From IMG/VR virus record IMGVR_UViG_3300028735_000014, positions 1-45,994 of that record: 45,994 nt of DNA; one strand, written 5' to 3'. The position numbers and the translations under genes are program-made. This document shows, in pieces, positions 407 to 43,374 of this stretch. Each line of letters starts with the position of its first letter. Positions within the stretch are counted from its first letter, which is position 1. Below the pieces are notes generated by a model that was given only the letters and a program-made list of their open reading frames with translations, had not been told where the DNA came from and did not search any database. This DNA comes from a virus.

Positions 407-612
407 TCAACAAAACATGATGCGCATGGCCTCGTCAGGATTTTCTTTGGCAAAAGAAATAGCCCGCTCCAACGTTTCTTTGTTGGAGAGCGGGTCGTAC
501 AAGCCTTGTATTTTTTCTGCTACTATAGGAGCGGTCGTTTCGCTCTCACGTGCGGTCTTGATAAATCCACGCTCTTTCGCGGCTGACGGTGGATAGAATA
601 ATTGACCTTGTT
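407..612 (-). pseudogene. Fragment of a large phage polyvalent/virion protein
   Basis: The minus strand reads an open frame of about 68 residues, roughly LLKQGQLFYPPSAAKERGF through GLYDPLSNKETLERAISFAK, ending MRIMFC. The combination RGFIKT.RES..TAP.VAEKI.GLYDPLSNKETL resembles an internal segment of very large phage polyvalent proteins, not a free-standing protein. No ATG, GTG or TTG is in frame after the previous gene stops, although an AAGGAGG ribosome-binding-like sequence sits there. The end at base 407 is close to the host flippase. I read it as a gene remnant cut off at the prophage boundary. An unusual start codon or frameshift from the upstream gene cannot be excluded. Confidence 0.4.
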
Positions 613-906
613 TTAATAAACCTCCTTCCAATTCGGATCCACTAAGTCCTTCTGCGGGTTCAAATATGGTTGCTTGCCATTCGCTATTGCGTACTCGTTG
701 AGTTGATTCGCCAATTCCTGCAATTGCTCCATTGCGTCCGGCGGTATCTGGTCTTCCAATTCCTTCCGCAATGTCCCTCGCTTCTGCTGACGTAAGGCTG
801 ATATCAGGCCGTCGTAACGCATCGCGTGCACCATTACCTGTCCTAAGTCCCAATCCTTGGGCGATATCGGGGTCGAGTTGTTTTGATTCGTATAATCGTT
901 TGACAT
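613..906 (-). CDS. Hypothetical phage protein, 97 aa
   Basis: A 97-residue soluble protein beginning MSNDYTNQNN and ending NPQKDLVDPNWKEVY. The start at 906 is chosen because GAGG lies about 8 bases upstream. It is mostly helical and charged in the middle (LRKELEDQIPPDAMEQLQELANQLNEYA), with no recognisable domain. Its frame looks more protein-like than the longer overlapping frame (407-1099), whose N-terminal half starts inside the terminator at 1098-1125. It lies immediately upstream of the polyvalent-protein remnant and overlaps its ribosome-binding-like sequence. Function unknown; probably the last intact gene at this end of the element. Confidence 0.5.
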   Translation of the reverse strand: MSNDYTNQNNSTPISPKDWDLGQVMVHAMRYDGLISALRQQKRGTLRKELEDQIPPDAMEQLQELANQLNEYAIANGKQPYLNPQKDLVDPNWKEVY

Positions 907-24924: not shown

Positions 24925-26048
24925 ACAGTTATATCATCATTTATGAATCCTCTTTTTTTCTGTGCCTGCTTCCACAACCCAGAAAAAGCGACCTTAAAAT
25001 TTTTCAACTTGGTCAAAGCATAATCATTTGCAAGTATACTCTGCACAACCACTCTACAAGCTTTATCCATTAAATCAGGGTATCCCTTAAACAATTTCTC
25101 ATGATAATCAATAAAATCCTTTATATCCTGCTTCCATTTTTCATTTTTAATTAAATTCTTAGCTAAATACTCGCCATATTCACGCCAACCACTGAACATA
25201 TATGGGACTTTTTCTATAAAATAATTCTCATAGCCCATTTTACCCGCCATATCAACACCCCCCAACCTCTCGACTAACTTATCATATAATTCATGATCAA
25301 CTTCCTGAAGATAGAACAAACTATCAACCGCCGTTTCATGGTGCAAACTCGAAATACGCATATGCTTCAATGACACCCCATATTGGTATTGCAAATCATA
25401 CATTTTATTATACTTCCATCCATTATCATTTATGGCCTTCCAAATATCAGTATAAGACCAATCATAGAGAGGGTAAAAAGTAAAATGATTATTTCTCCCA
25501 GCTTTTTTATTCCCCCAAGTTATATGTTTGTAAACTCGTCCATTTATCAATGCCGCATGTCGGCCTGGGCTTTCTTCGCATCTTACACCCGAAACACAAC
25601 AATGCTTCTTCCCAGCAAAATCTTTATTAAAAATAGCCCCAAATATGCCATACCACCAACCTACCCCATAAGTATTTTCTTTAATCGAAATAGGCTCTTT
25701 TTCTCTTAACCATTTTTTCCCAGGTTCCCAGCAATACAAAAACGTATCCTTAAACGAAGTAGCGTTTTCTATACGTATCGGGATTTGGTACCAATATGGA
25801 TCTACGATTTTATCTGACATCACATATCTAACCATCTCTATGGTCTCGTTCCATTCAGCTTCTTGATCGATAAACAAAACACTTATTCTGCGTCCTCTCT
25901 CTAACGCTACTTTTTTAGCCAATTCAAAAATCACAGTCGAATCTTTACCCCCTGAATAACCTACCGTCACTTCTTCGAACTCATCGAATAAAAAATTCAT
26001 CCTTTCAAGCGCAGCTTCCCATACATTTTTATCAGAATAAATTTTCAT
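24921..26048 (-). CDS. ibrA: IbrA-like PP-loop ATPase (PAPS reductase family)
   Basis: 375 residues. The PP-loop SGGKDS is at 32-37 within [18 protein letters not shown], and the adenylylating family motif [10 protein letters not shown] follows, after a CC pair. [19 protein letters not shown] is the usual W-x-x-x-D-I-W strand/helix of PAPS reductase relatives. The C-terminal helical region ([20 protein letters not shown]) fits the DUF3440-type tail of IbrA. Such enzymes adenylate a substrate using ATP and release pyrophosphate. Sulfur transfer or nucleotide modification is the usual chemistry, but the substrate here is unknown. It overlaps AdoMetDC and ibrB by four bases each. Confidence 0.87.
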
Positions 26049-26428
26049 AACACCGGATAAAGCAACCCCCTATTTTGAATATGAACTTCCATATCCTTTA
26101 TAGAATATGCCAAGCGTAAAATATCAATAATCTGCCCAATATTCATATTCCCCCTACAAGTATAAACATCTATACTCACAAACCCAACATGTGGGAACGT
26201 ATGTATCGAGATATGACTTTCTTGAATTATGACAAACCCGCTATATCCTCCATGATCGCCTTTATCGTTATTAAAAGCCTCAACTATTTTGGGCTCAATA
26301 AGCATTTTCATCTTCTCATTATTAGCTATTTTTTTCATTATATCGCTCATCAAAGCTTTATCCTGCAAAGCCTTAAACTCGCACCCATATCCATCAATCA
26401 TCAAATGTTGTCCAAATATTTTAACCAT
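26045..26428 (-). CDS. speH: S-adenosylmethionine decarboxylase, prokaryotic type
   Basis: 127 residues from the ATG at 26428; full length for the SpeH class. The self-processing site is intact: E70-S71 in [12 protein letters not shown], where S71 would become the pyruvoyl cofactor. H76 and C91 (VYTCRG) complete the catalytic set, so it should convert S-adenosylmethionine to decarboxylated SAM. No aminopropyltransferase is seen in the window, so ordinary spermidine synthesis is not supported here. It may feed an aminopropyl modification or drain SAM from host methyltransferases. It overlaps the glycosyltransferase by eight bases and ibrA by four. Confidence 0.92.
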
Positions 26429-27029
26429 AATTCCCAATATAATCTAACGAATTGCCTATGTTATGCCCAAGTGTGCTTTTTTTACCAATATGATCAAACA
26501 AAGTCGGTATAGTGACCACCCATTCTATTCTGTTTTGTACCAAATATTCTTGAATAACATTATCAAAATGCTTCGCTCGTTTCTCATCCAAAATGTCTTT
26601 TCCTACATTAGTATACCATTTTTTTATTCTACCTATTAAACCCTGTTGATTTATATAAATTACAGCATGATAATAATAAGCACCTGGGAATACACCTTTC
26701 ACATATCCCCTAGCCCGATTCTCCGGAGTAAAAAGATGCCTACGCCGGTTCATAAAACAATAAATCTCGCCCTGCACTTTATTATGCAACTCATTAAAAC
26801 GTTTATACCAATCTGGTACAGTAACCACATCATCGCACATAATCAAAATAGGCTCTCCATCCTGAGCATTATCTAACATATCCTCCATGCACCTTGATAA
26901 ATTGTAAGTATGACCGTATTTATTCACATCATTAAAAATTTTCAATACATCCACAAAAGGGGCTATTAAACTAACCAAGGCCGGAAGATATTGCTGACGA
27001 TCAGGCGTTGTTATTATACCCGCTTTCAT
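26421..27029 (-). CDS. Glycosyltransferase-like protein (GT-A type)
   Basis: 202 residues. The N-terminal strand/loop [20 protein letters not shown] and the acidic motif [15 protein letters not shown] (D66-D67 as the metal/nucleotide-sugar site) are GT-A features. The C-terminal [17 protein letters not shown] matches the P..v.HIG..StlGh segment of small phage and bacterial glycosyltransferases. It probably transfers a sugar from a nucleotide sugar. Acceptor unknown: DNA, a virion protein or a cell-surface glycan are all possible. It is the first large gene of the module A late operon and is coupled to AdoMetDC, which makes a nucleic-acid or small-molecule target worth considering. Confidence 0.7.
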
Positions 27030-27103
27030 ACCATAATGCTATTGAATCTATAAACGGCAGTTTTCGCACAAATCATGGCAAATCCAATTCTATCTATAAA
27101 ATA

Positions 27104-27265
27104 CTATCTAACAAATGATTCATCCATATTACTTCCCTTCTTGTTCGCCTCTACCCATTCTCTAAGCTCCTTTTCAGTCACCCCATAAACCCGTTCAAAT
27201 TCTTTAACAAAAGGAGAGTCAAAATTGCCATTCTCTTTAAGATAAGAGACTATAAGATTGAACAT
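27104..27265 (-). CDS. Small hypothetical protein at start of module A operon
   Basis: 53 residues from the ATG at 27265, chosen because GGGAAAGGA precedes it and because the promoter at 27305-27313 would put an ATG at 27295 almost on the transcription start. The protein is helical and acidic/basic mixed: MFNLIVSYLKENGNFDSPFV, then KEFERVYGVTEKELREWVEA. No known family. It is the first gene after the divergent control region and could be regulatory. Confidence 0.55.
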   Translation of the reverse strand: MFNLIVSYLKENGNFDSPFVKEFERVYGVTEKELREWVEANKKGSNMDESFVR

Positions 27266-27304
27266 CTGCAATCCTTTCCCTCTATTAGGTATCATATTGA
27301 TTCA

Positions 27305-27313
27305 ATTATAGCA
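27305..27313 (-). promoter_or_regulatory. Extended -10 promoter before module A operon
   Basis: On the minus strand TGCTATAAT is an extended -10 with a perfect TATAAT. Transcription would start near 27298 and lead into the gene at 27265. The -35 region is weak. It lies at the 3' end of the structured RNA, so the operon may have two promoters. Confidence 0.5.
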
Positions 27314-27328
27314 TATTTACAACACACG

Positions 27329-27655
27329 CCGCAATCCCTTTTGGTATTTACCAAAAGCCTGGTTTTACTGACTGTATTGCGGTTGACCATGCCGTTTGTA
27401 GTAGCCCCCAAATAGAATGTTTGGTAAATACACGATTGAATCATGTCCTTGCCAAAGGACCGGGACGTATGCGTATTGTAGCATCTACTAGCTACCCGTT
27501 GCCCGGATTAACATTCTATTTTTTGAGGGTTGGGTTCCGCCTTCTTTTAAGCTTCAAGTCAGACGTCTATAAGCCCCTATGTTACGCAAAAGCCCGCCTA
27601 AAAAAGGCAGGCAATTGCGGATGCTACTTTACGCATAGCCAGTTTTAATTCTGGC
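27329..27655 (-). ncRNA. Candidate structured RNA, ~330 nt, with pseudoknots
   Basis: Read on the minus strand from a perfect promoter, this sequence pairs with itself extensively. GCCAG/CTGGC (27651-55 with 27638-42) opens exactly at the expected +1. An 8-bp + AA/AA loop + 8-bp long-range helix joins 27620-27637 to 27468-27485. Adjacent to it is a 5+8-bp hairpin (27585-27619) whose only imperfect pair is G-U on this strand. Next come TAACAT/ATGTTA (27509-14 with 27579-84) and a 6-bp hairpin with a 4-base loop (27445-60). A perfect 12-bp helix (27410-21 with 27510-21) crosses the long helix as a pseudoknot. The 3' domain is CCGCAAT/ATTGCGG (27329-35 with 27376-82), enclosing a 9-bp hairpin (27338-57). 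I do not recognise tmRNA, RNase P, 6S, SRP or group I/II cores. It could be a stand-alone RNA or a long operon leader. Confidence 0.55.
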
Positions 27656-27661
27656 AGCTCC

Positions 27662-27690
27662 ATTATACGCATCTCCATAGGTTATGTCAA
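27662..27690 (-). promoter_or_regulatory. Perfect consensus sigma70 promoter
   Basis: On the minus strand TTGACA (27690-27685) and TATAAT (27667-27662) are both exact and are separated by exactly 17 bases. The start of transcription is expected at about 27655, where the first hairpin of the structured RNA begins. Such a full-consensus promoter is rare and implies very strong, probably constitutive or repressor-controlled expression. Confidence 0.9.
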
Positions 27691-27777
27691 GTATAGATTT
27701 TTTTTGTCTCCTTGTCAAATGGATTTTTATCTAAAAAACTATTTTGACTTGTGTATAAAAAAATAATACTTTATACT

Positions 27778-27945
27778 ATGAATATGAAAATGGAATTAGA
27801 AAAAATAAAGATCGATGGCGTTCGTTGTCCTAAATGCGGCGGCGAATGGGTACCACGCAAAGAAAGGCCAAAACTTTGTCCTTTCTGTCGCTTTCGTTTA
27901 TATAAAACTTATCCACAGGAGGAGCCTTTGAAGCCCTTGACATAG
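27778..27945 (+). CDS. Zinc-ribbon protein, 55 aa
   Basis: 55 residues from the ATG at 27778. Two CxxC pairs, CPKCGGEWVPRKERPKLCPFC, form a classic small zinc ribbon (C-x2-C-x15-C-x2-C). The form CPKCG.EW.PR...P..CP.C is common among tiny proteins of phages and mobile elements, probably with a DNA- or protein-binding regulatory role. It is the first plus-strand gene after the divergent region. A TTGACT at 27744-27749 might be its -35, but no good -10 is correctly spaced. Confidence 0.7.
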   Translation: MNMKMELEKIKIDGVRCPKCGGEWVPRKERPKLCPFCRFRLYKTYPQEEPLKPLT

Positions 27946-28277
27946 GTTGAAGATTGTTATACATTGTAAGTGCAAAATGAAATAGCTAAGCCAAACGGCG
28001 AAGCTGAACGGCCAAGCCAAACGGCGAAGCCACAGTAAAGCGAAACGGATAGGCTGGTGATACTGGCCTTACCCGCTAGCAGAAAAAGCAAAAGCTAAAA
28101 GCCCCAAAGCACATTAGACAATACAAGATTCCAGGCCGAAGAAATGAGGGTGACGAAAGTGGCGGCTAAGCTGTACATAGGCCAATATGAATAGGCACTC
28201 AACAAATTCACGGCCTGGAACCTGCCCCCTAAATAATTAGGAGGCAAAGATATTAAATCTTAATTAGATCACATAGT
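27946..28277 (+). other. Non-coding, repeat- and hairpin-rich leader region
   Basis: No gene is supported in these 332 bases. AAGCCAAACGGCGAAGC occurs twice (27988-28004 and 28014-28030). A perfect 10-bp long-range pair joins TTCCAGGCCG (28129-28138) with CGGCCTGGAA (28211-28220) around ~72 bases. Right after it, GCCCCCTAA and TTAGGAGGC form a near-perfect hairpin that also contains an AGGAGG sequence. The layout suggests a folded 5' leader or a second small RNA ahead of the early genes. Confidence 0.45.
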
Positions 28278-28397
28278 ATGTATAACATTGAAGAAAGCTT
28301 GCGGAGATGCGAAGAAGATCGCATTTGGCAAGCTGGGCAATGCGAAGATTATGAGATTACAGAAGAAAATTATGAATTTGAAGATGAAGATATATGA
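28278..28397 (+). CDS. Small acidic protein, 39 aa
   Basis: 39 residues, MYNIEESLRRCEEDRIWQAG then QCEDYEITEENYEFEDEDI, with a strongly acidic C terminus like a DNA mimic or a charged linker. Its TGA overlaps the ATG of the next gene (ATGA), which supports real translation. Function unknown. Confidence 0.5.
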   Translation: MYNIEESLRRCEEDRIWQAGQCEDYEITEENYEFEDEDI

Positions 28398-28804
28398 CTA
28401 CCATAGAAATATACCTTGAAGCGAAGAAAGAATTAAAAGCTTTCCGTGAAGCAAACGAAGAAGTTTTGGGAGTTTACGAAGCGATGTTACAAGCAATAGT
28501 TGAATTAGAAGAAGAATTAAGACAAAAAGCCAAAAAAACAAGAATTGATATAGAAGCTGGGGATATAAAATTCCAATTTATACCTCGATATAAAAAATGG
28601 ATTGATTTTGAAAAAGCAATGAATTGCATGGAGACAGATGAACAAAGAAAAAAACTCATGGATATAACTTCGCAAAAAATTGAAGTAGATATCGAAAAAT
28701 TCTTGAAACTTTGTCGGAGAGGAGAATTGCCTGATAAAGCTAGAATTGAAGCATATCAAGAAGAAGAAATTGAACCGCAAGTACGTTTAATAGAGAATAA
28801 ATAA
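28394..28804 (+). CDS. Coiled-coil early protein, possibly Gam-like
   Basis: 136 residues. The first ~60 form a charged coiled coil (YLEAKKELKAFREANEEVLG, AMLQAIVELEEELRQKAKKT). A strand-rich part follows (DIEAGDIKFQFIPRYKKWID) and then more helix. Helical-hairpin proteins placed just before phage single-strand annealing proteins are often host-nuclease inhibitors of the Gam kind. That is a contextual suggestion only. It precedes the ERF gene by 38 bases. Confidence 0.55.
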   Translation: MTTIEIYLEAKKELKAFREANEEVLGVYEAMLQAIVELEEELRQKAKKTRIDIEAGDIKFQFIPRYKKWIDFEKAMNCMETDEQRKKLMDITSQKIEVDIEKFLKLCRRGELPDKARIEAYQEEEIEPQVRLIENK

Positions 28805-30684: not shown

Positions 30685-30706
30685 ACATATTGAATAATAT
30701 TTTCTG

Positions 30707-30781
30707 CCCGTCCCGCCATGCCTCCGGCTAAGTCCGCAGGGAACAACGAATGACAGTAGTTGTCCGGAAATGGCGGACGGG
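30707..30781. repeat. Imperfect long inverted repeat at composition boundary
   Basis: CCCGTCCCGCCAT at 30707-30719 is complementary to ATGGCGGACGGG at 30770-30781 except for one missing base. The interior (30720-30742) has a second imperfect palindrome rich in CCTCCGG/CCGCAGG. It falls in the gap where AT-rich module A-like DNA gives way to GC-richer DNA. It could be a REP-like element, a bidirectional terminator or a scar of recombination. Confidence 0.65.
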
Positions 30782-30797
30782 TGGAAAAAGAAAAAAT

Positions 30798-31370
30798 ATG
30801 AAAACTAAAACCAAAATTATCTTCATCCTCTCAGTCCTGGCCATCTGCATTATGTCGTTCATCCTTTGGCCTAAGACTGAGACGGCCATTGAAATCAAAG
30901 AATACACGCCAGATCCTTGTACAAAAGTCAAAGAAGCTACGACTAGCACTCCGGCGGAATATGATTGCACCGAAAGCGCAACCCTGCTCAAAAAATGGGC
31001 AGTGTTCGAAAGACAAGAAAAAGCTAACCTACAAAACGAGCTAGATAGGCTCCTGGGCAAGAAAATTAAAGCTATCATCACTAAATATAGCCGCGAAGAT
31101 AGTTGCCATAACCCTAAAATAGTCCATGGCAAAAAACTCTGCCTAACATCCATAGGCCGTGACACGCGAGAGGGAGTGACCGTAGCTTGCCCTAGGTTTA
31201 TCAAACTCGGAACAAAGGTTGAAATCTTAGGCAAAACCTATATCTGCGAAGATAGATACAGTACCTATCTCGATAAACTGAGGAAACTGCCAACGTTCGA
31301 TATATTCCTGGAAAAAGAAAATCTAAGGAAAATGCCAGGAAAACAGATTGCTACAGTGACAATAAAATAA
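30798..31370 (+). CDS. Membrane-anchored 3D/RlpA-like double-psi barrel protein
   Basis: 190 residues from the ATG at 30798. Residues 1-24 are a membrane anchor or signal (IIFILSVLAICIMSFIL). Residues 30-85 are a polar stalk with a coiled coil (RQEKANLQNELDRLLGKKIK). The C-terminal domain carries TKYSREDSC, RFIKLGTKVEILGKTYICED and FDIFLEKEN, matching the order of acidic residues in 3D/RlpA-type double-psi beta-barrels. Those act on peptidoglycan (lytic transglycosylase-like) or bind it. It is the best lysis or cell-wall candidate in the window. It is flanked by two imperfect inverted repeats. Confidence 0.7.
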   Translation: MKTKTKIIFILSVLAICIMSFILWPKTETAIEIKEYTPDPCTKVKEATTSTPAEYDCTESATLLKKWAVFERQEKANLQNELDRLLGKKIKAIITKYSREDSCHNPKIVHGKKLCLTSIGRDTREGVTVACPRFIKLGTKVEILGKTYICEDRYSTYLDKLRKLPTFDIFLEKENLRKMPGKQIATVTIK

Positions 31371-33367: not shown

Positions 33368-33502
33368 ATGCCAAAAGCTATGGAAGAAGCCTTGAAAAAA
33401 GAGGCTACCAAGAAAGGGTTGACCGGTGATAGCTGGAATGCCTATGTGTACGGTACTTTGGCCAAGTTCAAAGAAGCCGCTAACAAGCCAAAAAAGAAGT
33501 GA
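33368..33502 (+). CDS. Small phage protein, 44 aa
   Basis: 44 residues: MPKAMEEALKKEATKKGLTG then DSWNAYVYGTLAKFKEAANK. The pattern ALK.EA.KKGL.G...AYVYGTL.K is one I recognise from very small proteins beside phage packaging genes. Role unknown. It ends two bases before the TerS ATG. Confidence 0.7.
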   Translation: MPKAMEEALKKEATKKGLTGDSWNAYVYGTLAKFKEAANKPKKK

Positions 33503-33504
33503 CT

Positions 33505-34017
33505 ATGGGAAGACCCAAAGGAAGTAAAAACCTGACGCCCGAAGAGCGTGCCGAAAGGCTAAGGGTGTACAATGCGCAAAAATTGCCACCTCATCGACCT
33601 ACTACATGGAAGCCTGAATACAATCAAGCCATAATTGATTGGTTTGAGGATGCCGCTTTACACCCATTCAGAGAAGTAGTTGATAATCATGGCAGGATAC
33701 AATTAGTGCCGAAACGATGCCCTACTCTTGAAGGATTTGCGCATTCCATCGGGACTGTGCCCCAGGTTTTGGAACGTTGGGCGGAAGAGGAAAACAAAGA
33801 TAAGTACCCCGGGTTTAGCGAATCTCATTCACGTGCTTTGAAATTACAGAAGGATTTTTTGCTATCTACAGGGCAATCTGGCGCGGCTGACTCTAGGTTC
33901 ACAATGTTCATGCTAAAGAATAACCACGGCATGAGAGATACGACCGATGTTACGAATGACGGCGGGAAGTTTGAGCCGCCAGTCATCATTAACCCAGGTA
34001 AAGATTTGACCATCTAA
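33505..34017 (+). CDS. terS: Terminase small subunit, module B
   Basis: 170 residues from the ATG at 33505; a GTG two codons upstream overlaps the previous stop and is possible. It opens with an AT-hook-like MGRPKGSKNLTPEERAERLR. A helix-turn-helix follows near residues 70-95 (PTLEGFAHSIGTVPQVLERW). A helical region then leads to RFTMFMLKNNHGMRDTTDV, a signature frequent in terminase small subunits. Its stop overlaps the TerL ATG by one base. It would mark the module B genome for packaging and shares no clear similarity with the module A TerS. Confidence 0.8.
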   Translation: MGRPKGSKNLTPEERAERLRVYNAQKLPPHRPTTWKPEYNQAIIDWFEDAALHPFREVVDNHGRIQLVPKRCPTLEGFAHSIGTVPQVLERWAEEENKDKYPGFSESHSRALKLQKDFLLSTGQSGAADSRFTMFMLKNNHGMRDTTDVTNDGGKFEPPVIINPGKDLTI

Positions 34018-35429
34018 TGGGTATCACGATAACTCAAGACCGCTGGATAGGGCGCCCGAACGAGTTTTTAGATAGAGATGGACAAAGACATCCTCTACCC
34101 GTCCTTGACGCTTTCATGGCCTCGAGAGCCAAGAGACAGATACTTGTTGCCCATAGGCGCGGACGAAAAACTACAAAAGCGCTGGAAAAAATGTTCCAGT
34201 ATTTATGGGCTAACCCTGGGATAGTGGGGAAAACATTGGCGCCTATACGCAAGCAAGCCAAAGAAATAATATGGGATGATCCCGACATGTTATTCCATCC
34301 GAATGTTTGCAATCCGAATATTATATCCAAAGTAAATCATAGCGAATTAAAGATTACGCTAAAAAATGGCAGTTTATGGAGCTTGGACGGCATGGACGAC
34401 CCGCAATCTAAGCGCGGCGGCAATGCCAAAGTAGTGCATTTTACAGAAGCAGGCGACCATGAAGAGTCCGGTTGGAGCCAGATATACGAGCCTATTTTGA
34501 CGGCGAATAACGGCGTTGCCATTTTCGAGGGCAACCCGCGTGGCAGGAATTGGTATTATCGTCTGTTCAATAACGCGGAAGGACGCGAAGGCTGGGAAAG
34601 GTTTTATATGCCGGCGGCACGATTGGACGCCCAAGGTAAACTAGAACCTCTTACGCCTATTTTTACGCTTGAACAATTACAGGATTTGCGAAGCCATAAT
34701 CCTGACGCTGTATTTAGGGCTGAATATCTTTGCGAATGGGTAGATAGTGTCGGCACCGTATTCCGCAATTTTGAGCGTTTGGCCATAGCACAACCTGAAA
34801 AAGCCAGGAAAGGCAGGCGATACCGCATAGGTGTTGACTTGGCAAAATTGCAAGATTTTACTGTTTTGACCGTGGTGGACAGGCACGAATGGCGTGAGGT
34901 GGCTATTGACCGTTTTAATCAGATTGACTGGACATTGCAGAAAGAGCGCATCAAGGCCATGGCTAAGGAATATGGAGCTAAAGAGAATGGCAATAAGCTG
35001 GAAGTGTTGATAGAAAGCAATGGCGTCGGTGATCCGATATTCGATGATTTATGGAAATGGGCGGCATCTGACGAAATACGCAAGGCATACGACATAACAT
35101 TTACGCCATTTAGAACGACCAACGAAACCAAGGCTATGATAGTAAGCAATTTGTCTATGCTCTTTGACGAGGGGATTATCACGATATTGCCGGATCCGGT
35201 GGCCTTGCGTGAGCTTAGCGCGTTCGCCTATAAGAAATCGTCTTTGCACTTCATCTATGGCGCGCCGAATGGGGAGCATGACGATACCGTCATGAGCAAG
35301 GCTTTAGCTTTTTGGGAGCTAGGCGCAAAACTCCCCGAACCTATTGACAACGATAAGCCTCAGCATAAGTGGGGATTGCCGCCCGAAGCCTATAAAAACA
35401 GGACTTCACACCCTTTATGGCTGGGCTAA
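34017..35429 (+). CDS. terL: Terminase large subunit, module B
   Basis: 470 residues. The Walker A-like element ILVAHRRGRKTT is at 42-53 (divergent, with R-R-x-R-K-T) and Walker B is VVHFTEAG at 139-146. The nuclease domain has D274 in RIGVDLAKLQDF, E333 in VLIESNGVGDP and D422/D423 in GEHDDTVMSKAL. All catalytic positions are present. It is clearly distinct from the module A TerL: shorter and with a different ATPase motif. It sits between TerS and portal. Confidence 0.95.
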   Translation: MGITITQDRWIGRPNEFLDRDGQRHPLPVLDAFMASRAKRQILVAHRRGRKTTKALEKMFQYLWANPGIVGKTLAPIRKQAKEIIWDDPDMLFHPNVCNPNIISKVNHSELKITLKNGSLWSLDGMDDPQSKRGGNAKVVHFTEAGDHEESGWSQIYEPILTANNGVAIFEGNPRGRNWYYRLFNNAEGREGWERFYMPAARLDAQGKLEPLTPIFTLEQLQDLRSHNPDAVFRAEYLCEWVDSVGTVFRNFERLAIAQPEKARKGRRYRIGVDLAKLQDFTVLTVVDRHEWREVAIDRFNQIDWTLQKERIKAMAKEYGAKENGNKLEVLIESNGVGDPIFDDLWKWAASDEIRKAYDITFTPFRTTNETKAMIVSNLSMLFDEGIITILPDPVALRELSAFAYKKSSLHFIYGAPNGEHDDTVMSKALAFWELGAKLPEPIDNDKPQHKWGLPPEAYKNRTSHPLWLG

Positions 35430-35440
35430 AATTGTAATGT

Positions 35441-37453
35441 ATGCAGGACGGCAAGAAAGAAATAGACGTATTCGAGCGTGATTGGAATACCGCACGCGAG
35501 CATTGGAAACGTAAACATCGTGTCTGGGATTATAACTACCTGACATACCGTTCCGTGCTGACGTATAACGACATATACGGTGAGAAATATCTCAAAGCGT
35601 TCGGCTTGCAGGTGTTCGTGCCGCGCACGTTTCAGACTGTCGAAAGTTTGTCATCCGCAATTCTGGCCAAAGATACGTCATTCACGGTCAAGGGATTGAA
35701 CCTGTTAGACAATAAAAAGAGCAAATACTTCGAGCGCATGGACAATGTGGAATGGAAGCGGTCGGGCGCGGAAGAAGCGACCGCAACAGCTCGGCGCGAT
35801 GCGCTCATATATGGCATGGGGCATATTCTTAATTGTTATGTAGAGGATACGGAAACTCTTGATTTTCCTGTCAATAAAGCCAAAGAAAACGAGAAACCTG
35901 AAGAGGACAAGGATGGCCAGCCAGAGGAACAAGAGACTGCGTTGCCTAAAAACAAGAAAGAAATCGAATGGGAAAAGAAAGAGGTTATTCGTTATCGCGG
36001 CATGAAGCCGGAAGCCATCGACCCGTATTATTGCTTTCCTGACCCGTCGGCCAGCGATGCGAAATCACGCCGTTACCTGTATCGCTACAAGATTTGGAAC
36101 GTTGACGAATTGCGCGACTGGGTTGTCGGTAAAGGTTGGATGGACGAGAAAGAAGCAGCCCAAAAGATACAGCCGACGAACGTGGAATACTTTGACGCTA
36201 TCCGCGACACGATTGATTGGATGTATCAAATGCCGCTCAATACGGGCTATACGCGAGGAAACCACGCTGACCCGAATGACGCGGCCTTGAAACCTTACCA
36301 GAGGCCGACCGAAAACATGGTGGCTACGATAGAACGCTACGAGAAGAATTACTACGAATGCCGCCTAGCTGACCAGACTCCACTATATTCTGACTTTAAT
36401 GTTTATCCGCATAAGAAAATCCCAGTCGTCACGTTCTATAACTACAAAATAGAGCACAGAGACGAAGGAATGGGCGAGCCTGAAATCATCCGACACCAGC
36501 AACTCGAGGAAAACAAGATACACAATTTTGTATTGCAGACGCTTTTAATGAGCATAGTCCAGCGATATGCAGTGCATGCTGACTTGTTAGATGACGAAAA
36601 TGACTTATACATGAGCGACCCGTTTAAGCCTATACGGCTGAAATCCTTGCCCGGACTATCCGTGCAACAAGCCATAATGCCCATGCCGCAACCGGACGTG
36701 AAGCAGATTCCGTTCGAACTTATGGGGCTTGTAAAAGATACTTTGCAAGCTACAAGTGGAGCGTCGGACTTTATCGTCTCTGCCAACGACGCATCAACCA
36801 ACACGGCCACAGAGAGCAACAACCTCATGGCCGCCACGACAGGACGCATACGCGGGAAAATCCGCGCGATGGAACCAAGTCTGCGCGAAATCGTGGAGCA
36901 ATGGCATACGTGTTTTGCTTTTTTCTACGACCAAGAGATGGACTTACTTATCACAGGCGATGACCAGTATTACAAGTATTTACCTTATAACAGGGAAGAA
37001 GCAGACGAAAATCCGGTACTCATGGCTCGTGCCTCTCAAAAATACGATGCCGTCGGCGATACTTTGGAAGAGATATACAGAAATGCAGGCTTTGCCGATG
37101 TTATTTATCTATCTGACTTAATGGGCGAGATGGTGGTAAGCGTGCAGACAACCGACCCAGAAATAAATAAAGATAAGACCGTGGTTAAGTTCTCAGAGGC
37201 CATTCGCCTCATGAACGAGGCTAATAACGCGGCTAAAATGGCTGGAGATACGCGCCAGTTCGATTCTTTCAAGCTAGCTAAGGACGCTTTGGCCAACTTC
37301 GACTTCATTAAGGACATATCGGAATACGTGAAAGGCGAGGGGAAACAAGCCTTACAAGCGCCAGTTATTCCTCCGCCGCAACCGGAACCAGCTATGAACA
37401 CTACTAATCCGAACATAGCGGCAGAAATGCCAGCTATGCCGATGACACAATAA
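35441..37453 (+). CDS. Portal protein, module B (P22-like)
   Basis: 670 residues. The segment GEPEIIRHQQLEENKIHNFV, a helix lining the channel, and the following LQTLLMSIVQRYAV are typical of P22/SU10-type portals. An acidic low-complexity loop lies near residues 140-175 (EKPEEDKDGQPEEQETAL). The C-terminal helix-rich barrel is followed by a Pro/Met-rich disordered tail. The ring would join head, motor and tail. Same length as the module A portal but not visibly related in sequence. Confidence 0.85.
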   Translation: MQDGKKEIDVFERDWNTAREHWKRKHRVWDYNYLTYRSVLTYNDIYGEKYLKAFGLQVFVPRTFQTVESLSSAILAKDTSFTVKGLNLLDNKKSKYFERMDNVEWKRSGAEEATATARRDALIYGMGHILNCYVEDTETLDFPVNKAKENEKPEEDKDGQPEEQETALPKNKKEIEWEKKEVIRYRGMKPEAIDPYYCFPDPSASDAKSRRYLYRYKIWNVDELRDWVVGKGWMDEKEAAQKIQPTNVEYFDAIRDTIDWMYQMPLNTGYTRGNHADPNDAALKPYQRPTENMVATIERYEKNYYECRLADQTPLYSDFNVYPHKKIPVVTFYNYKIEHRDEGMGEPEIIRHQQLEENKIHNFVLQTLLMSIVQRYAVHADLLDDENDLYMSDPFKPIRLKSLPGLSVQQAIMPMPQPDVKQIPFELMGLVKDTLQATSGASDFIVSANDASTNTATESNNLMAATTGRIRGKIRAMEPSLREIVEQWHTCFAFFYDQEMDLLITGDDQYYKYLPYNREEADENPVLMARASQKYDAVGDTLEEIYRNAGFADVIYLSDLMGEMVVSVQTTDPEINKDKTVVKFSEAIRLMNEANNAAKMAGDTRQFDSFKLAKDALANFDFIKDISEYVKGEGKQALQAPVIPPPQPEPAMNTTNPNIAAEMPAMPMTQ

Positions 37454-37455
37454 CT

Positions 37456-37746
37456 ATGGACAAAGGATTTAAGGGGCTAATCAAGCCCAAAGATACGCCA
37501 GCCGATGTGATTGAGGTGATACAAACGCCGCCGAGTTTTTACATCGAAAGCGACCAGATGTCTGGTATCAAAGACTTCGAGCTAGGCAAGGAATATACGG
37601 CCAAAGTTCGCATGACACGCCGTGAGGAACAAGAAAACGGCGAAATGCATTGTTGTTTCGAGGTCGTGAGTGTAGACGGCAAGAGCCTAAACGCAGAGGA
37701 AGACGTGCAAAAGGACGAAAACAGCGAGGAAAACTCCGATGAATGA
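37456..37746 (+). CDS. Hypothetical protein, 96 aa
   Basis: 96 residues beginning MDKGFKGLIKPKDTPADVIE. The core has strands (GKEYTAKVRMTRREEQENGE, HCCFEVVSVDGKSL), with an acidic disordered tail (EEDVQKDENSEENSDE). It starts two bases after the portal stop and is followed after three bases by the next gene, so it is a late gene. The small beta-barrel shape suggests a virion accessory. Not recognised. Confidence 0.6.
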   Translation: MDKGFKGLIKPKDTPADVIEVIQTPPSFYIESDQMSGIKDFELGKEYTAKVRMTRREEQENGEMHCCFEVVSVDGKSLNAEEDVQKDENSEENSDE

Positions 37747-37749
37747 TGT

Positions 37750-38106
37750 ATGGATCCCATGGAATTACTGGAAAACATCGCCAATCCTAAGCAAACGGCA
37801 GAAAACGAGGCGCAACATAAAGCTCATCTAGCAGACGCCGCGTCCGTGTGCGAGATGTTACAGACGCCAGGCGGGAAAATTCTGCGAGATAAACTGCAAG
37901 CAATGCTCGAAGCGTTGGTCGTACCGCCTGAACGTTTTACCGTAACACGCGTAGGTGCGCAGGGAGACACTTTCACGGAAGTCAACGCGACGCTTGTGGC
38001 GTCCATGGCAGGCCAACGAGCTGGTATCTATGACGTGCTTGCGTGGCTTAACTCATGTGAGAAAATGATTGAGAGGGAAGCGCAAAATAAAGCGGAAGCT
38101 CATTGA
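37750..38106 (+). CDS. Hypothetical helical protein, 118 aa
   Basis: 118 residues, mainly helical: PMELLENIANPKQTAENEAQ, GKILRDKLQAMLEALVVPPE, then a short beta part and AGIYDVLAWLNSCEKMIERE. Between portal and scaffold genes, it corresponds in place to small assembly or head-closure accessories. It ends before a structured intergenic region. No family recognised. Confidence 0.6.
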   Translation: MDPMELLENIANPKQTAENEAQHKAHLADAASVCEMLQTPGGKILRDKLQAMLEALVVPPERFTVTRVGAQGDTFTEVNATLVASMAGQRAGIYDVLAWLNSCEKMIEREAQNKAEAH

Positions 38107-38113
38107 TAAAACA

Positions 38114-38188
38114 ACACAAAACTCCACAAACGGTGCGGGGTCCATGTCCCGTAGCGGTTTTTGGGGTTTTGTGTGGTTAGTGGAGTTT
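38114..38188 (+). promoter_or_regulatory. Mutually exclusive hairpins ahead of scaffold gene
   Basis: Two perfect 9-bp helices compete for overlapping bases: 38114-38122 with 38166-38174, and 38119-38127 with 38180-38188. Both enclose a CGGG/CCCG stem (about 38136-38151). Only one outer helix can form at a time, the layout of an RNA switch or attenuator. It stands before the terminator-like hairpin at 38226-38246 and the scaffold/capsid genes. Confidence 0.45.
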
Positions 38189-38225
38189 CCATACAAAATC
38201 AAAAAGCCAAAGCTAAGGGACAAAG

Positions 38226-38246
38226 ACGCCGTACCAAGTACGGCGT
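38226..38246 (+). terminator. Terminator-like hairpin before scaffold gene
   Basis: ACGCCGTAC (38226-38234) pairs perfectly with GTACGGCGT (38238-38246) around a three-base loop, followed by TTATT. The uridine tract is short, so termination may be partial, or the hairpin may protect the 5' end of the scaffold/capsid message. It ends 22 bases before the scaffold ATG. Confidence 0.5.
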
Positions 38247-38268
38247 TTATTCATAAGCGACAAAACTT

Positions 38269-39192
38269 ATGCCAGAAGTTCAAGCGAACGTCGCCATTGC
38301 CGGAGAGCCAACGGGGCTGGGTGCGCAAGTGTTAGCCGACGAAGAGGCAGCGCTTGAGCAAGCAGTCCCGAAAATCGAAAGCAAACAAGACGTTCCAGAA
38401 CCATCGAAGTCCGACGACGAAAAACAAGAGGACGACGGAAAAGCAGATGAGCCTGAGGCCGAAGAAACCGAGTCGACCAAGGACGACAAGCCCAAGGAAG
38501 ACAAGGATAAAAAGCCTGAGGAAACCAAAAGCGCCACCGTCAAGATAGGCAAACAGGAGTTTGCCAGCGTGGAAGACGCAGTCCGCGAAGCTACTCGGAT
38601 CATGGGTCGCAACGCGGAATTGTCAGGGCAATTAAAGCAGGCCAATGCCCGTGCGGAAGAGGCCACACAAGCCCTAGAAAGCGTCAAAGCGCAATTGGAT
38701 GAAGCCTTAAAGGTCAATCAACAGTGGGCAGAATGGCATGAAAAGGTCACGGCAGGAGAAACCGCTGAGCCGCCACATGCCAAACAACCACCAATTGATG
38801 AAGTAGTTCGCAAAGTCCTTGCCGAGCAAGAAGCGGCGCGGGCTGAGGCCGAACGCATGAAGGCCATCGAGGCTGAGTTCGAAAAGGTGCAGAACGCACC
38901 TAACTACCCTCAGGTGGCCGAAACCATCTACAAGGTAGCAGACCAAATAAATCCATTAACAGGGAAGTACTTTACCCCAAAAGAAGCCTACGAATTCGCC
39001 TGTCGCATGGCAGGGATTGCGCCTGAGCTCGAGACTACTGCACCGCCTCCCGTTCCTCCTAGGTCGCCAGTTAATTCGGCAGTTAAGAGTTCGGCCGCAA
39101 GACCCGGTGGTTCCGGACGTTTAGCTCCCCAGCAAGAGCCGGAAGTCACCACTATCGAGGACGAATATCTGGCAAAGGCCTTCCCGCTATAA
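38269..39192 (+). CDS. Scaffolding protein, module B
   Basis: 307 residues, very acidic and Lys/Glu-rich over residues 35-95 (DDEKQEDDGKADEPEAEETE). A coiled coil follows at about 115-160 (AELSGQLKQANARAEEATQA, LESVKAQLDEALKVN). The C-terminal region contains INPLTGKYFTPKEAYEFACR, then a Pro-rich linker and a short tail (TTIEDEYLAKAFPL). Placement six bases before the capsid gene and the charge/coiled-coil profile fit a scaffold that is removed from the procapsid. It is unrelated in sequence to the module A scaffold. Confidence 0.8.
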   Translation: MPEVQANVAIAGEPTGLGAQVLADEEAALEQAVPKIESKQDVPEPSKSDDEKQEDDGKADEPEAEETESTKDDKPKEDKDKKPEETKSATVKIGKQEFASVEDAVREATRIMGRNAELSGQLKQANARAEEATQALESVKAQLDEALKVNQQWAEWHEKVTAGETAEPPHAKQPPIDEVVRKVLAEQEAARAEAERMKAIEAEFEKVQNAPNYPQVAETIYKVADQINPLTGKYFTPKEAYEFACRMAGIAPELETTAPPPVPPRSPVNSAVKSSAARPGGSGRLAPQQEPEVTTIEDEYLAKAFPL

Positions 39193-39198
39193 AAAATT

Positions 39199-40449
39199 AT
39201 GCCTAAACCTAACGTCACGCCGTATTCCGGCAACGCTAACACGGGGCTAGACAACACAGCGCAATTTGTCCGCGACGTCGATCCCCGGATGTTCTACCTC
39301 GAAGCGTACAAATATCCCTTCGTGTCCATTTTGTTCACCATGGGCACTGACATGGAAAAAAAGGACAACGGGAAGCTTGCTTTGAAAGGAAGCCAAATCA
39401 AGAAACAAAAAACTGTCAATCCGAAGTTCGAGCATACTGAATCAGAGATGCTCAAATTCGCGTTCAACCCGACGGCTGCAGTCGCTACTGGTGACACTAC
39501 AATCAGCGTGTCCACGTCCGACGATGATTATTTTGTGGCCGACATGGAAGTGCTGCTCACGAACGCCGCAGGTTCACGTGAAGTCGTCCGCGTCAATTCT
39601 GTCGGCACTGGCTCAATCTCCGTTACCCGTAACATCGGCGGTACCGGCGCCATCGCCATGACTACGGCCGATAACATGTACATCATGGGCGTGGTACGTG
39701 CCGAGGACTCTCTGTCCACGACCGCTGTCCAGGCCAAGAGCGAGACGCTTTACAACTATGTCGAGTTCCTGTCCGAGCCTTATGGCGTGTCTAAAATCGA
39801 GCAGGCTACGGCCAACTACCACGGCGATCCGTACGCCCGCAAGAAGATGGAAGCCTTGGCTCGCATGAAACAGAAGCTCGAAATGATGGCATGGTTTGGC
39901 GTGCGCTCTATGGACGCCTCGACCACTAACCCAATCTACCACAATGGCGGTGTCATGTACTGGCTGCAAAATCAGTTCACTGACGTGCCGTCTTTGGATG
40001 TAGGCGGCTTGCTTACTAAACAAGCTTGGGATGCCTGGCTCCAGGATGCCTTGAAGTACAACAATCAGCAGAAGTTCGTGTTCGCCTCTAGCCCTGTCTT
40101 GACGGCTGTCAACGGTTTCGCAAGCAATCAGCTCCGTCCATCAGACGTGAACCTATCGAAGTTTGGTGTGTCTATCACGCAGTATCAATCGCCATTCGGT
40201 ACGGTCAATCTCATTCGCGAGCCGTTGTTTGACGAAGTCGCCAGCATGAATGGCAGCGCCGTCTGCTTAGACCTTAACAACATCTCTTGGCGCTATTTGG
40301 AATCCAACGGCGTCAACTTGGACTTGAAGTCTTATGACGACATCCAAGAGAATGACCGCTCGGCCAGGAAGGGCGAATGGATGGTGGTCGGCGGCTTTGA
40401 CATCGCCGTGGGTAAATCGCATGCCATCCTGTCCAATGTGCAAGCCTAA
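39199..40449 (+). CDS. Major capsid protein, module B (SU10/DUF5309-like HK97 fold)
   Basis: 416 residues. FYLEAYKYPFVSILFTMGTD, then the KFEHTESEM segment, a central beta insertion (TTISVSTSDDDYFVADMEVL, REVVRVNSVGTGSISVTRNI), HGDPYARKKMEALARMKQKL and NPIYHNGGVMYWLQNQF follow the SU10-type (DUF5309) major capsid pattern with HK97 fold. The bases around its stop codon are shared with the 26-bp element. Its gene is GC-rich with highly biased codons, as expected for the most abundant virion protein. Confidence 0.85.
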   Translation: MPKPNVTPYSGNANTGLDNTAQFVRDVDPRMFYLEAYKYPFVSILFTMGTDMEKKDNGKLALKGSQIKKQKTVNPKFEHTESEMLKFAFNPTAAVATGDTTISVSTSDDDYFVADMEVLLTNAAGSREVVRVNSVGTGSISVTRNIGGTGAIAMTTADNMYIMGVVRAEDSLSTTAVQAKSETLYNYVEFLSEPYGVSKIEQATANYHGDPYARKKMEALARMKQKLEMMAWFGVRSMDASTTNPIYHNGGVMYWLQNQFTDVPSLDVGGLLTKQAWDAWLQDALKYNNQQKFVFASSPVLTAVNGFASNQLRPSDVNLSKFGVSITQYQSPFGTVNLIREPLFDEVASMNGSAVCLDLNNISWRYLESNGVNLDLKSYDDIQENDRSARKGEWMVVGGFDIAVGKSHAILSNVQA

Positions 40450-40473
40450 TAAAAACGCCAGTTTTCAACTAAT
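40448..40473 (+). repeat. 26-bp element, copy 2 (module B, after capsid)
   Basis: Contains AAAAACGCCAGTTTTCAACT and is identical over 26 bases to the minus-strand sequence 10768-10743. It overlaps the last two bases of the capsid stop codon and lies about 20 bases before the next gene. The AAAAC/GTTTT hairpin may act as a weak terminator or processing site after the capsid gene. Confidence 0.8.
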
Positions 40474-40494
40474 CCGCTAATTTAAGCTAAAAAT

Positions 40495-41226
40495 ATGGAA
40501 TATCAACACAAGGCCGCAGGACTCATCGAGAACGGTAGCCGTGTTATCGTCGCCGACCAATCAGTCGCCGTCGCTATCCGCTACAAAGGCTCGCAACCGT
40601 CCGCGACCGTGACTGTCGTCTCCGCCACTTCAATGACCTTGAAGCATGGCACGGCAGGTTCAGAGACCGGTGATACAACTGTCGGATCGTCTGGTGTCCT
40701 GGCTTTCTCCACTTACTCGACACTTGGCGCGCTCGTTGACGAAATCAACCGCGGCGGCAACTGGCAGGCCGAAATTGTCGATGGTTTGCGCTCCGATGCG
40801 ACTACTGGTTCAACCTTGCTAGCTCGCTCAGAAACGACAATCACTCCGAAGACGCAGGTTCTGGATTGCTACTGGGACACTTCGGCCAAGCTGTCGCTCG
40901 ATGTGGCCATCTCTTCGCGCCGTAGCAACTTCAACAAGACGCGAAAAGGCAAGGTCGCCGTGTTCCAGCAGGCGCGCTGTCTGGTAGATATCTCTTCCGG
41001 AACGCTTACCCTCTACATCTACGATGTGGATAAGGCGCGTTCGACAGCTACGCTCTTGGCCACGTTCGCCGGAACGGACGCTACCGAACTTTCCGCGCTC
41101 ATCGCCGGAGGCAATGGCGTATTGCGTTCGAGCGTCGGCAACGATTTGCTCGTCCGCTATGTCGGATCTGCGAATTTGCCGGATACCGGAGCCTACCTGA
41201 ACGTCGCCGGTTACATCGAAGCCTAG
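40495..41226 (+). CDS. Probable virion structural protein, 243 aa
   Basis: 243 residues, beta-rich, starting MEYQHKAAGLIENGSRVIVA. Two comparable halves are visible: SATVTVVSATSMTLKHGTAG...YSTLGALVDEINRGGNWQAE, and GKVAVFQQARCLVDISSGTL...LSALIAGGNGVLRSSVGNDL. Both have a strand-rich unit with a LxxLIxxxNG-like helix. Immediately after the capsid gene such a protein is usually a head decoration or head-completion protein. No exact family recognised. Confidence 0.6.
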   Translation: MEYQHKAAGLIENGSRVIVADQSVAVAIRYKGSQPSATVTVVSATSMTLKHGTAGSETGDTTVGSSGVLAFSTYSTLGALVDEINRGGNWQAEIVDGLRSDATTGSTLLARSETTITPKTQVLDCYWDTSAKLSLDVAISSRRSNFNKTRKGKVAVFQQARCLVDISSGTLTLYIYDVDKARSTATLLATFAGTDATELSALIAGGNGVLRSSVGNDLLVRYVGSANLPDTGAYLNVAGYIEA

Positions 41227-41253
41227 CCCATTAAATCCATTAACGGGTTGGTT

Positions 41254-41287
41254 GGTCGCCCCTAGTGCCTTTTTGCTGGGGGAGACC
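41254..41287 (+). promoter_or_regulatory. Intergenic hairpin
   Basis: GGTC (41254-41257) plus CCCC (41259-41262) pair with GGGG (41279-41282) plus GACC (41284-41287), giving a two-part stem around a T-rich loop. It is followed by an AAGGAG ribosome-binding site (41295-41300) for the gene at 41308. No uridine run follows, so an mRNA-processing or stability role is more likely than termination. Confidence 0.45.
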
Positions 41288-41307
41288 GCCAAAAAGGAGC
41301 TAACCCT

Positions 41308-41766
41308 ATGTCAATTCGTTTCATCTCATCTAAGGCTGATCATAAAGTCTTGCTCGTCCCAGGACGCCAACTTACTGACCCCTTAACAGGGTTACCAGGT
41401 CAACAAATACCAAACAGATACGTGCATTTTAAGTCGCTTGTATATGAAGCGACGAATGACGACGAAGCCTACTTGCTTTTGCAAAAATGGCATCAAGCCG
41501 AGGAACGCCGCTGGCCTCATTCATTTTGGGTACATCCGTCTGATTTAGAAGCCGCCAACGAATTGTGGGAAGAACGTAAAACAAACCCAACTCCGGTTGT
41601 GCCAGACGCTAATTACGTCAAGAGCCTTGAAGACCAGATACGCGAATTGAAAGCCATGATCATGGAAAAAGGCAATGAGACCGAACAGCTTAAACCTAAA
41701 AAGCCGAAGGGGAGGCCTAAAGCTCCATCATCGGAAATGAACAACTATGGATCAAATCAATCGTAA
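41308..41766 (+). CDS. Hypothetical phage protein, 152 aa
   Basis: 152 residues. The globular N-terminal part is MSIRFISSKADHKVLLVPGR...IPNRYVHFKSLVYEATNDDE and AYLLLQKWHQAEERRWPHSF. The second half is a coiled coil (KSLEDQIRELKAMIMEKGNE) and a basic KPKKPKGRPKAPS tail. The pattern of a short strand-rich unit followed by a coiled coil is common in phage late regions after the capsid. Function unknown. It overlaps the next gene by 20 bases. Confidence 0.65.
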   Translation: MSIRFISSKADHKVLLVPGRQLTDPLTGLPGQQIPNRYVHFKSLVYEATNDDEAYLLLQKWHQAEERRWPHSFWVHPSDLEAANELWEERKTNPTPVVPDANYVKSLEDQIRELKAMIMEKGNETEQLKPKKPKGRPKAPSSEMNNYGSNQS

Positions 41767-43117
41767 ATTGGGTTGTTTCACTTACGACCCATCAATCAGC
41801 GGATACGACACGTCATTTTGGAAAACCTTATCAGGTTCGCCAAGTGTTATATCCAACAAATTACGCTTAAGCTCAGCGGAAATCGCCAGCTATGTAGCCT
41901 TCCGTGAGCTCGACGTCGAGTTCATGGTAACGGTACCAACCGCCCCGACAAGCGGCGATGCAAGAGCTTTTGGCCTAAAAATACCGGCTCTCGGCAACCG
42001 CGCCCGCGTGGAATTCAACATCACTGACGCTGTATTTTCATGCAAAGTGTATGACGATACGGCCACGGCACAACTCAGTCAGGCCATCACATGGGACGCC
42101 TCGTGGACAAACACAGCCATTAAATATCGCATCCAAGCTACAGCATCTGGCGTCAAGTTTTATGTTGACGGTGCGTGTGTCGCAAGGGCGGAAATGCAAG
42201 GATTGACCGCAAACAATTCACTCCCAACTATTGGCGGTTATCTGCATATCTCGAACGGCAACGCCGATAACATGGATATTACGGCCGTCGTTGTTAAAGA
42301 CGCACAGCTTGTGGATACAACACTCCGCCCAGTTCCTTCATCTAGTTCTGGCTCTTCTAGCTCTTCTTCCTCCGGTTCATCTTCCGCCGGCGGTGGTAAT
42401 AATACCTATTCAACAGAACAAGGCGACTTTTCGGCCACTGTAACTGACTCGACATATAGCATCGTTCTTTCAACCGACACTATTGGCGGGCAGACAATCA
42501 CCGAGGCTAACTTTGCTAACGGGATCTTGAAAGTCATGGATGTCTCGGCTTCGCCCAAAGAATTCAAGACTATCACTCTTAATAAGTTCACCTGGAATAG
42601 TTCGACCAAAACACTCGATGTCACTAACTGCACAGGAGCATTCCTTTTCGGTACTGGGGATATTGTCTCATTGACTCTTACCGGTGCGGATAAAATCCGC
42701 GATGCGGCTACTGACTCGCAAAAAACAAGTCTCATTCGCGACGTGAGCGACCAGTATGGGAATGAGACACTCATTGATACGACGAACGTGGCCGCTGGGA
42801 CTAACTATTATCCGTCACCTTCCGGAAGCCCGATGGACAATTCTTCGACGCTCTCTATTCAAGGAAAAACAAGCGGTGGAGTGACTACGACAATTGAGGC
42901 GACAAACGACGACTCGGCTTCTCCCGATTGGTTCGATATTTCCAAATCATTTACCGACTTGGTCACGAATACATCCGGCAACGCATCTTACGTAGATGCC
43001 AACTTCATTCTTGTTCCAACTGGGCGGGATGTACTAAATGTCAAGGCCATTCGTATTAAATCCGTCACAAGCACCTCGACTAATGTCGTTAAATATAACA
43101 TCCGAAAAATTTACTAA
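41747..43117 (+). CDS. Fibre-like protein with LamG-type domain and Ser-rich linker
   Basis: 456 residues. Residues ~10-190 form a concanavalin/LamG-like sandwich (FWKTLSGSPSVISNKLRLSS, AIKYRIQATASGVKFYVDGA, GGYLHISNGNADNMDITAVV). A pure Ser/Gly linker follows at about 197-220 (SSSSGSSSSSSSGSSS), then a second beta-rich domain (STEQGDFSATVTDSTYSIVL, PSPSGSPMDNSSTLSIQGKT). The two-domain layout with a flexible linker suits a virion surface or tail-tip protein that binds glycans. The third copy of the shared element follows directly after the stop. Confidence 0.65.
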   Translation: MDQINRKLGCFTYDPSISGYDTSFWKTLSGSPSVISNKLRLSSAEIASYVAFRELDVEFMVTVPTAPTSGDARAFGLKIPALGNRARVEFNITDAVFSCKVYDDTATAQLSQAITWDASWTNTAIKYRIQATASGVKFYVDGACVARAEMQGLTANNSLPTIGGYLHISNGNADNMDITAVVVKDAQLVDTTLRPVPSSSSGSSSSSSSGSSSAGGGNNTYSTEQGDFSATVTDSTYSIVLSTDTIGGQTITEANFANGILKVMDVSASPKEFKTITLNKFTWNSSTKTLDVTNCTGAFLFGTGDIVSLTLTGADKIRDAATDSQKTSLIRDVSDQYGNETLIDTTNVAAGTNYYPSPSGSPMDNSSTLSIQGKTSGGVTTTIEATNDDSASPDWFDISKSFTDLVTNTSGNASYVDANFILVPTGRDVLNVKAIRIKSVTSTSTNVVKYNIRKIY

Positions 43118-43139
43118 AAACGTTAGTTTTCAAACTGAT
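43115..43139 (+). repeat. Diverged third copy of the 26-bp element
   Basis: TAAAAACGTTAGTTTTCAAA continues to CTGAT and ends exactly at the ATG at 43140. It differs from the other two copies at a few bases but keeps the hairpin AAAAC-GTTA-GTTTT. Loop bases vary while the stem is kept, which hints at selection for the hairpin. Confidence 0.6.
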
Positions 43140-43373
43140 ATGCCAGAATTATTCGATCCGCGAGCAGGCATCGTGGAGACTCCCATCGAGCAGCAAGTCC
43201 GAGATGTCTCGGAGGACTTGGCTCGCGCCGAAAAGATTATCCGAGGCCTAAAAGAGCCCATGTTCATTGAGGACTTGATTAAGATGGTGCAGGAGACCTG
43301 CAATCTCACGAACGATGAGGTCGTGGAAGTAGTTAAGAAAATCGATGACGAGCTCAAAGCAGTAACGCAATAG
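43140..43373 (+). CDS. Small helical late protein, 77 aa
   Basis: 77 residues: MPELFDPRAGIVETPIEQQV, then RDVSEDLARAEKIIRGLKEP and IDDELKAVTQ. Almost entirely helical and acidic. Its ATG directly follows the third shared element, just as the 567-aa gene follows copy 1. It may be a small tail or chaperone protein. Not recognised. Confidence 0.6.
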   Translation: MPELFDPRAGIVETPIEQQVRDVSEDLARAEKIIRGLKEPMFIEDLIKMVQETCNLTNDEVVEVVKKIDDELKAVTQ

Positions 43374-43374
43374 T

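Follow-up and report, generated by a model that had tools for sequence, protein, structure and literature searches.

Lambdoid phages express their late genes from a strong promoter that is followed by an early terminator with Q antitermination, and then by a long structural operon. In phage HK022, the put antitermination RNAs are about 65-70 nt long and form two stem-loops. GOLLD and ROOL RNAs are about 600 nt or more in length and are often found near tRNA islands, and together with OLE they are marked by a conserved structure with covariation and by homo-multimers. For comparison of size, ROOL RNA measures 659 nt and many GOLLD RNAs exceed 800 nt (PMC12286853). Nearly all that is known of Patescibacteria viruses comes from metagenomes, and our literature search found no paper that deals with structured RNA, phage and Patescibacteria together.

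We analyzed IMG/VR record IMGVR_UViG_3300028735_000014 over its whole length of 45,994 bases (the window), in which a putative structured noncoding stretch of about 330 nt, named RNA A (27325 to 27655, minus strand, 3' end inferred), lies in front of a structural operon. At present it is one sequence with real structure signals and no family; if verified, it would show late-gene gating in such a virus, or a new phage RNA class.

Like a lambdoid late promoter, the promoter of RNA A (P1), a 12/12 match, stands at the head of a terminase-portal-capsid operon; a predicted terminator of borderline score, with a short U-run, lies soon after the start. Unlike the lambdoid arrangement, no Q-like gene or binding site was identified, a structured stretch follows the predicted terminator, and a second promoter (P2) precedes the operon. 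RNA A resembles HK022 put as a structured RNA that starts a phage operon and would, in our model, act in cis, but it is about 330 nt long with a predicted pseudoknot. It shares with the phi29 packaging RNA that it is a phage-encoded structured RNA, and the operon here also codes for packaging proteins; unlike phi29, this phage has an ordinary two-subunit terminase, and RNA A matches no Rfam family. With ROOL and GOLLD (PMC12286853), RNA A has in common that it is phage-encoded and noncoding, with long-range helices and a pseudoknot, which is predicted here. A new ornate RNA of that kind, as proposed in the earlier note, is nevertheless not shown: the distance from P1 to P2 leaves about 330 nt, half their size or less, a terminator-like hairpin lies inside, no tRNA is nearby, neither their Rfam models nor any homologue match, and the sequence outside nt 1-72 and the long-range helices folds at the level of chance.

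Gene blocks and promoters around RNA A

RNA A is located between two gene blocks, the minus-strand operon named module A and a plus-strand block. Module A extends over approximately 22 kb, from about 27295 to 4956, and encodes the small and large terminase, portal, ParB-like proteins and a capsid/protease protein, along with PAPS-reductase-like and AdoMet-decarboxylase-like proteins. The plus-strand block starts at 28278-28394, with an Erf-type annealing protein first, and carries a second terminase/portal/capsid set unrelated to that of module A. Relatives of the terminase were found in viral contigs and in Patescibacteria (Parcubacteria) contigs, and therefore the host is probably a Patescibacterium.

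Several other features of the record were noticed. The two unrelated head modules, at 4956-27295 (minus) and 33499-44583 (plus), give one record two large terminases, two portals and two capsid genes, which could mean prophages in tandem, a chimeric assembly or a virus that truly has two modules; the relatives L002 (module A) and L048 (module B terminase, 53%) come from the same metagenome. A phage-encoded AdoMet decarboxylase lies at 26045-26437 on the minus strand (Pfam AdoMet_dc, E 8e-26), and a similar cluster, comprising the 26421 protein and PAPS-reductase-like and ParB-like genes, occurs in L025. On the plus strand, a short acidic ORF (28278-28397, MYNIEESLRRCEEDRIWQAGQCEDYEITEENYEFEDEDI) without a family match has a stop that overlaps the start of the 28394 gene, and the region 30700-30900, at the start of the 30750 ORF, reaches a folding z of about -4.2 on both strands.

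The promoter P1 (27662 to 27690, minus strand) consists of TTGACA at 27690-27685, a 17-nt spacer and TATAAT at 27667-27662. It is exact at 12/12 positions, as had been claimed for it, and is the sole 12/12 site of the window, with none in 40 dinucleotide shuffles of the window. A further promoter, TTGACA-17-TATACT (27690 to 27718, minus strand, 11/12), is placed upstream and overlaps P1 by one base. Counted from the promoter position, the predicted start G27655 is about 7 nt beyond the TATAAT of P1, and is the first base of a 5' hairpin GCCAG/CUGGC (27638 to 27655, minus strand), whose pair probability is about 0.95.

RNA A is thus flanked by the very strong P1 and, on its other side, by P2 (TTGTAAATATGCTATAAT and the bases after it, 27296 to 27322, minus strand) before the first module A gene. 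When the region was compared by blastn with 380 Patescibacteria genomes, 9 of the 14 best matches fell on P2, and several of these P2-like matches stand just before start codons, so that P2 appears to be a host-type (Patescibacteria-type) promoter for the module A operon. The first module A ORF (27104 to 27295, minus strand) encodes 63 aa from the ATG at 27295 and has no family match above the cut-off; its downstream ATG (MFNL) has an AAGGA ribosome-binding site. A leaderless first gene at P2 is not claimed, in view of that downstream site.

Helices of RNA A and their excess over chance

At 27401-27600, G+C reaches 46%, compared with 30-37% in the adjoining sequence. No minus-strand ORF of at least 60 aa lies within RNA A. 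Plus-strand coding at 27421-27648 was considered and set aside: an ORF runs across RNA A there, without a Pfam or phage protein match.

The long-range helix H1 (27468 to 27637, minus strand), is a perfect 8+8 bp inverted repeat around an AA/AA loop, pairing 27637-27630 with 27475-27468 and 27627-27620 with 27485-27478, and so agrees with the 8+8-bp helix across about 170 nt described earlier. Its inner part has a pair probability of 0.93, and its outer part 0.29-0.93. The 12-bp helix reported to cross it was likewise recovered, with 27521-27510 pairing exactly with 27421-27410 (helix 27405 to 27529, minus strand). Past an AAA bulge it is extended by CCCUC/GGGGG (27529-27525 with 27409-27405), which contains a second U-G that forms on the minus strand only. 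Close to the 3' end, CUUUUGGU-AAAU-ACCAAAAG forms a hairpin at 27338 to 27357 (minus strand, pair probability 0.69-0.88), inside which 27344-27355 is a 12-bp complement of 27420-27431.

Two helices of the earlier note need correction. The nested 3' domain CCGCAAU/AUUGCGG is present but disfavored, with a pair probability of about 0.06; a competing helix (RNA 194-202 with 316-324) has a probability of about 0.9 for its first six pairs. The 13-bp hairpin also exists, yet not as one continuous stem: a UU/UU loop divides it into 5+8 pairs. As noted, all of its pairs are perfect except one, which on the minus strand is U-G; this pair and the one in the extension would both be C-A on the plus strand.

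The density of long helices is a real excess over shuffled sequence. Five Watson-Crick inverted repeats of at least 8 bp were seen versus 0.86 expected (five were reached in 1 of 300 shuffles), and two of at least 12 bp versus 0.01 expected (0 of 300). The score of the best crossing helix pair was reached in 8 of 200 shuffles. For RNA A the minimum-free-energy z is -4.1 in both orientations, which leaves the choice of strand to other evidence: the promoters and the two U-G pairs favor minus. When RNA A is divided, z is -4.8 for nt 1-72, -5.4 for nt 1-188, 0.0 for nt 72-170 and -0.8 for nt 189-334. Nt 1-72 and the long-range helix account for the excess stability, and the folding of nt 72-170 and 189-334 is at the level of shuffled sequence. 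What stands out in RNA A is therefore the 5' hairpin, along with the terminator-like hairpin, H1, the crossing helix and the palindrome near the 3' end. In a pseudoknotted fold, the crossing duplex contributes -18.5 and the remaining structure -101.3; with an assumed penalty of 7-9 kcal/mol, the sum comes to about the -110.9 of the nested minimum, and the energies thus permit the knot but do not require it. The observation of a promoter joined to unusual helices is real.

Relatives and RNA families

We compared RNA A with Rfam and with related loci. No Rfam family matched anywhere in the window at the gathering score, and at E values up to 10 nothing credible appeared in 27000-28400, including GOLLD, ROOL, OLE, RNase P RNA and group I introns, in line with the earlier statement that no known class is recognizable. 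ARAGORN and Rfam were negative for tmRNA, and no tRNA was found in the window. Neither blastn in 380 Patescibacteria genomes nor a single-sequence covariance model run on about 130 loci and 362 Patescibacteria genomes gave a homologue. The loci had been gathered from viral contigs via terminase, portal, capsid, zinc-ribbon and operon proteins, and from genome contigs via terminase. The covariance model gave few matches, most of them to the terminator hairpin or to hairpins that arise by chance, and the more distant capsid relatives held no match to the RNA.

The nearest phage, L002, is 71% identical in terminase, 69% in portal and 86% in capsid, and has kept a divergent zinc-ribbon gene (46% identical) in the corresponding position. 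Its noncoding stretch before the operon (718-1060, about 340 nt) has a sequence unrelated to RNA A and gave nothing credible in Rfam; it contains a terminator-like hairpin with a score of 13.9, and the promoter TTGATT-17-TATAAT at its end. No promoter of at least 9/12 stands directly before that hairpin, so the stretch is a loose positional analogue only. We rejected it as a true homologue: the covariance model gave no score above noise and the crossing helices were no better than shuffled, so only the shared position is kept. L003 is nearly identical to L002 in this stretch, and the pair gives no covariation. RNA A is accordingly treated as an orphan candidate, a single sequence without an Rfam family or a homologue.

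An early terminator-like hairpin and possible readings

The 5+8-pair hairpin, followed by UUUU, occupies 27585 to 27619 on the minus strand (27619-27615 with 27589-27585, and 27612-27605 with 27599-27592). Its core, GCCUGCCU-UUUUU-AGGCGGGC followed by UUUU, is set within a CGCAA/UUGCG base, and a region scan lists the hairpin at 27612-27592 as terminator-like on the minus strand only. What the earlier note described as a coaxial 13-bp hairpin is thus predicted to be an intrinsic terminator (27612-27592, tail 27591-27588), located about 65 nt past the start (approximately nt 44-68). Its score of +7.2, with a UUUU tail, is borderline and comes from a published standard formula. Termination may be weak, given the short U-run (UUUUGCG). 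Terminator-like sites in the region scan are about as frequent as in shuffles (3 versus 2.0), and none was found on the minus strand between 27590 and the first module A gene.

The signal of promoter plus fold resembles, at least in part, an early stop signal with a leader before the structural operon, and our best reading, a tentative one, is a strong promoter, an early terminator and a structured read-through leader ahead of the 22-kb operon. It builds on the observed sequences, promoter match, helices, terminator-like hairpin and absence of a terminator before the operon, from which we infer transcription, read-through, antitermination and knot formation. P1 would head the minus-strand structural operon (terminase, portal, capsid), and polymerase starting there would make the 5' hairpin, an 18-nt linker and then the intrinsic terminator at about nt 44-68; thus part of the transcription is predicted to stop early, as a short RNA of about 65-68 nt. 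Read-through may be constitutive, or aided by a phage or host antitermination factor. Polymerases that read through would go on into module A after making the roughly 330-nt leader, where the linker would pair with 27485-27468 and a helix of 12-17 bp would close the pseudoknot, while P2 would give a lower, host-type level of the same operon.

In favor of the leader, much of the excess stability resides in nt 1-72 (z -4.8). The operon codes for ParB-like proteins, small terminase and capsid/protease, and its terminase and portal are homologous to those of L002, whose own operon is likewise preceded by about 340 nt of noncoding sequence containing a terminator-like hairpin in its early part. A scan of the operon-edge proteins revealed no antiterminator family; small orphan ORFs remain. 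H1 and the crossing helix cannot control the early terminator, because their 3' arms are made later, and the leader model assigns them no purpose. The alternative raised in the earlier note, that RNA A is an elaborate leader of module A, agrees with the data no worse than a new RNA does, because no terminator was found between RNA A and the operon.

The long-range helices, which the leader model does not explain, keep close behind it a second reading, quite possible though short of likely: an independent noncoding RNA with a pseudoknot, about 330 nt long, made from P1 and ending before P2, that would act in trans as an orphan class working like other large phage RNAs. The perfect promoter, the 5' hairpin at the predicted start, helices beyond chance with an energetically tolerable pseudoknot, two U-G pairs formed on the minus strand only, the operon's own promoter P2 and the lack of an Rfam match all agree with it. 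The leader is placed slightly above it, since a predicted terminator lies inside RNA A and none at its 3' end; moreover, nt 72-170 and 189-334 have no extra stability, no homologue exists among the sequences searched, and the L002 sequence at the same place is unrelated. That the RNA would represent an undescribed class seems rather unlikely: a compact, fast-evolving pseudoknotted RNA of about 330 nt in Patescibacteria viruses with its own consensus promoter, perhaps paired with a second divergent structured RNA (27937), whose closest relative keeps the position only.

Improbable, in our view, is that P1 yields nothing but a short terminated transcript (about 66 nt) and that the downstream repeats are unrelated to it. 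A hairpin, an 18-nt single-stranded seed and a terminator are typical small-RNA anatomy, consistent with the z of nt 1-72 and the borderline terminator score, and L002 has a predicted terminated RNA of less than 100 nt, but on the opposite strand relative to the operon; the U-run is short, and the exact 12-bp and 8+8-bp repeats downstream would be left unexplained. Least probable is that the inverted repeats work as DNA, as operator half-sites (the TTTGGTAAATAC palindrome by P2), recombination or origin elements with an incidental RNA fold: CTTTTGGT-ATTT-ACCAAAAG stands immediately upstream of P2, another half-site is present at 27420, and both strands fold about equally well, but no repeat sequence recurs elsewhere in the window above chance, and both imperfect pairs, U-G on the minus strand, would be C-A on the plus strand.

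Further promoter-associated structures were noticed here and in L002. A second noncoding stretch (27937-28260, plus strand) has a divergent promoter TTGACA-17-TACATT, AAGCCAAACGGCG repeats and a 10-bp long-range stem, with a z of -4.8, and folding z falls to -6.3 (minus strand) in the 28200 window. In L002, a promoter TTGACT-17-TACAAT at 187 on the minus strand matches the divergent 27937 promoter, and at 531-657 (minus strand) an 11/12 promoter TTGACA-17-TAAAAT at 657 and a terminator at 552-536 with a score of 13.9 delimit a predicted RNA of about 90 nt.
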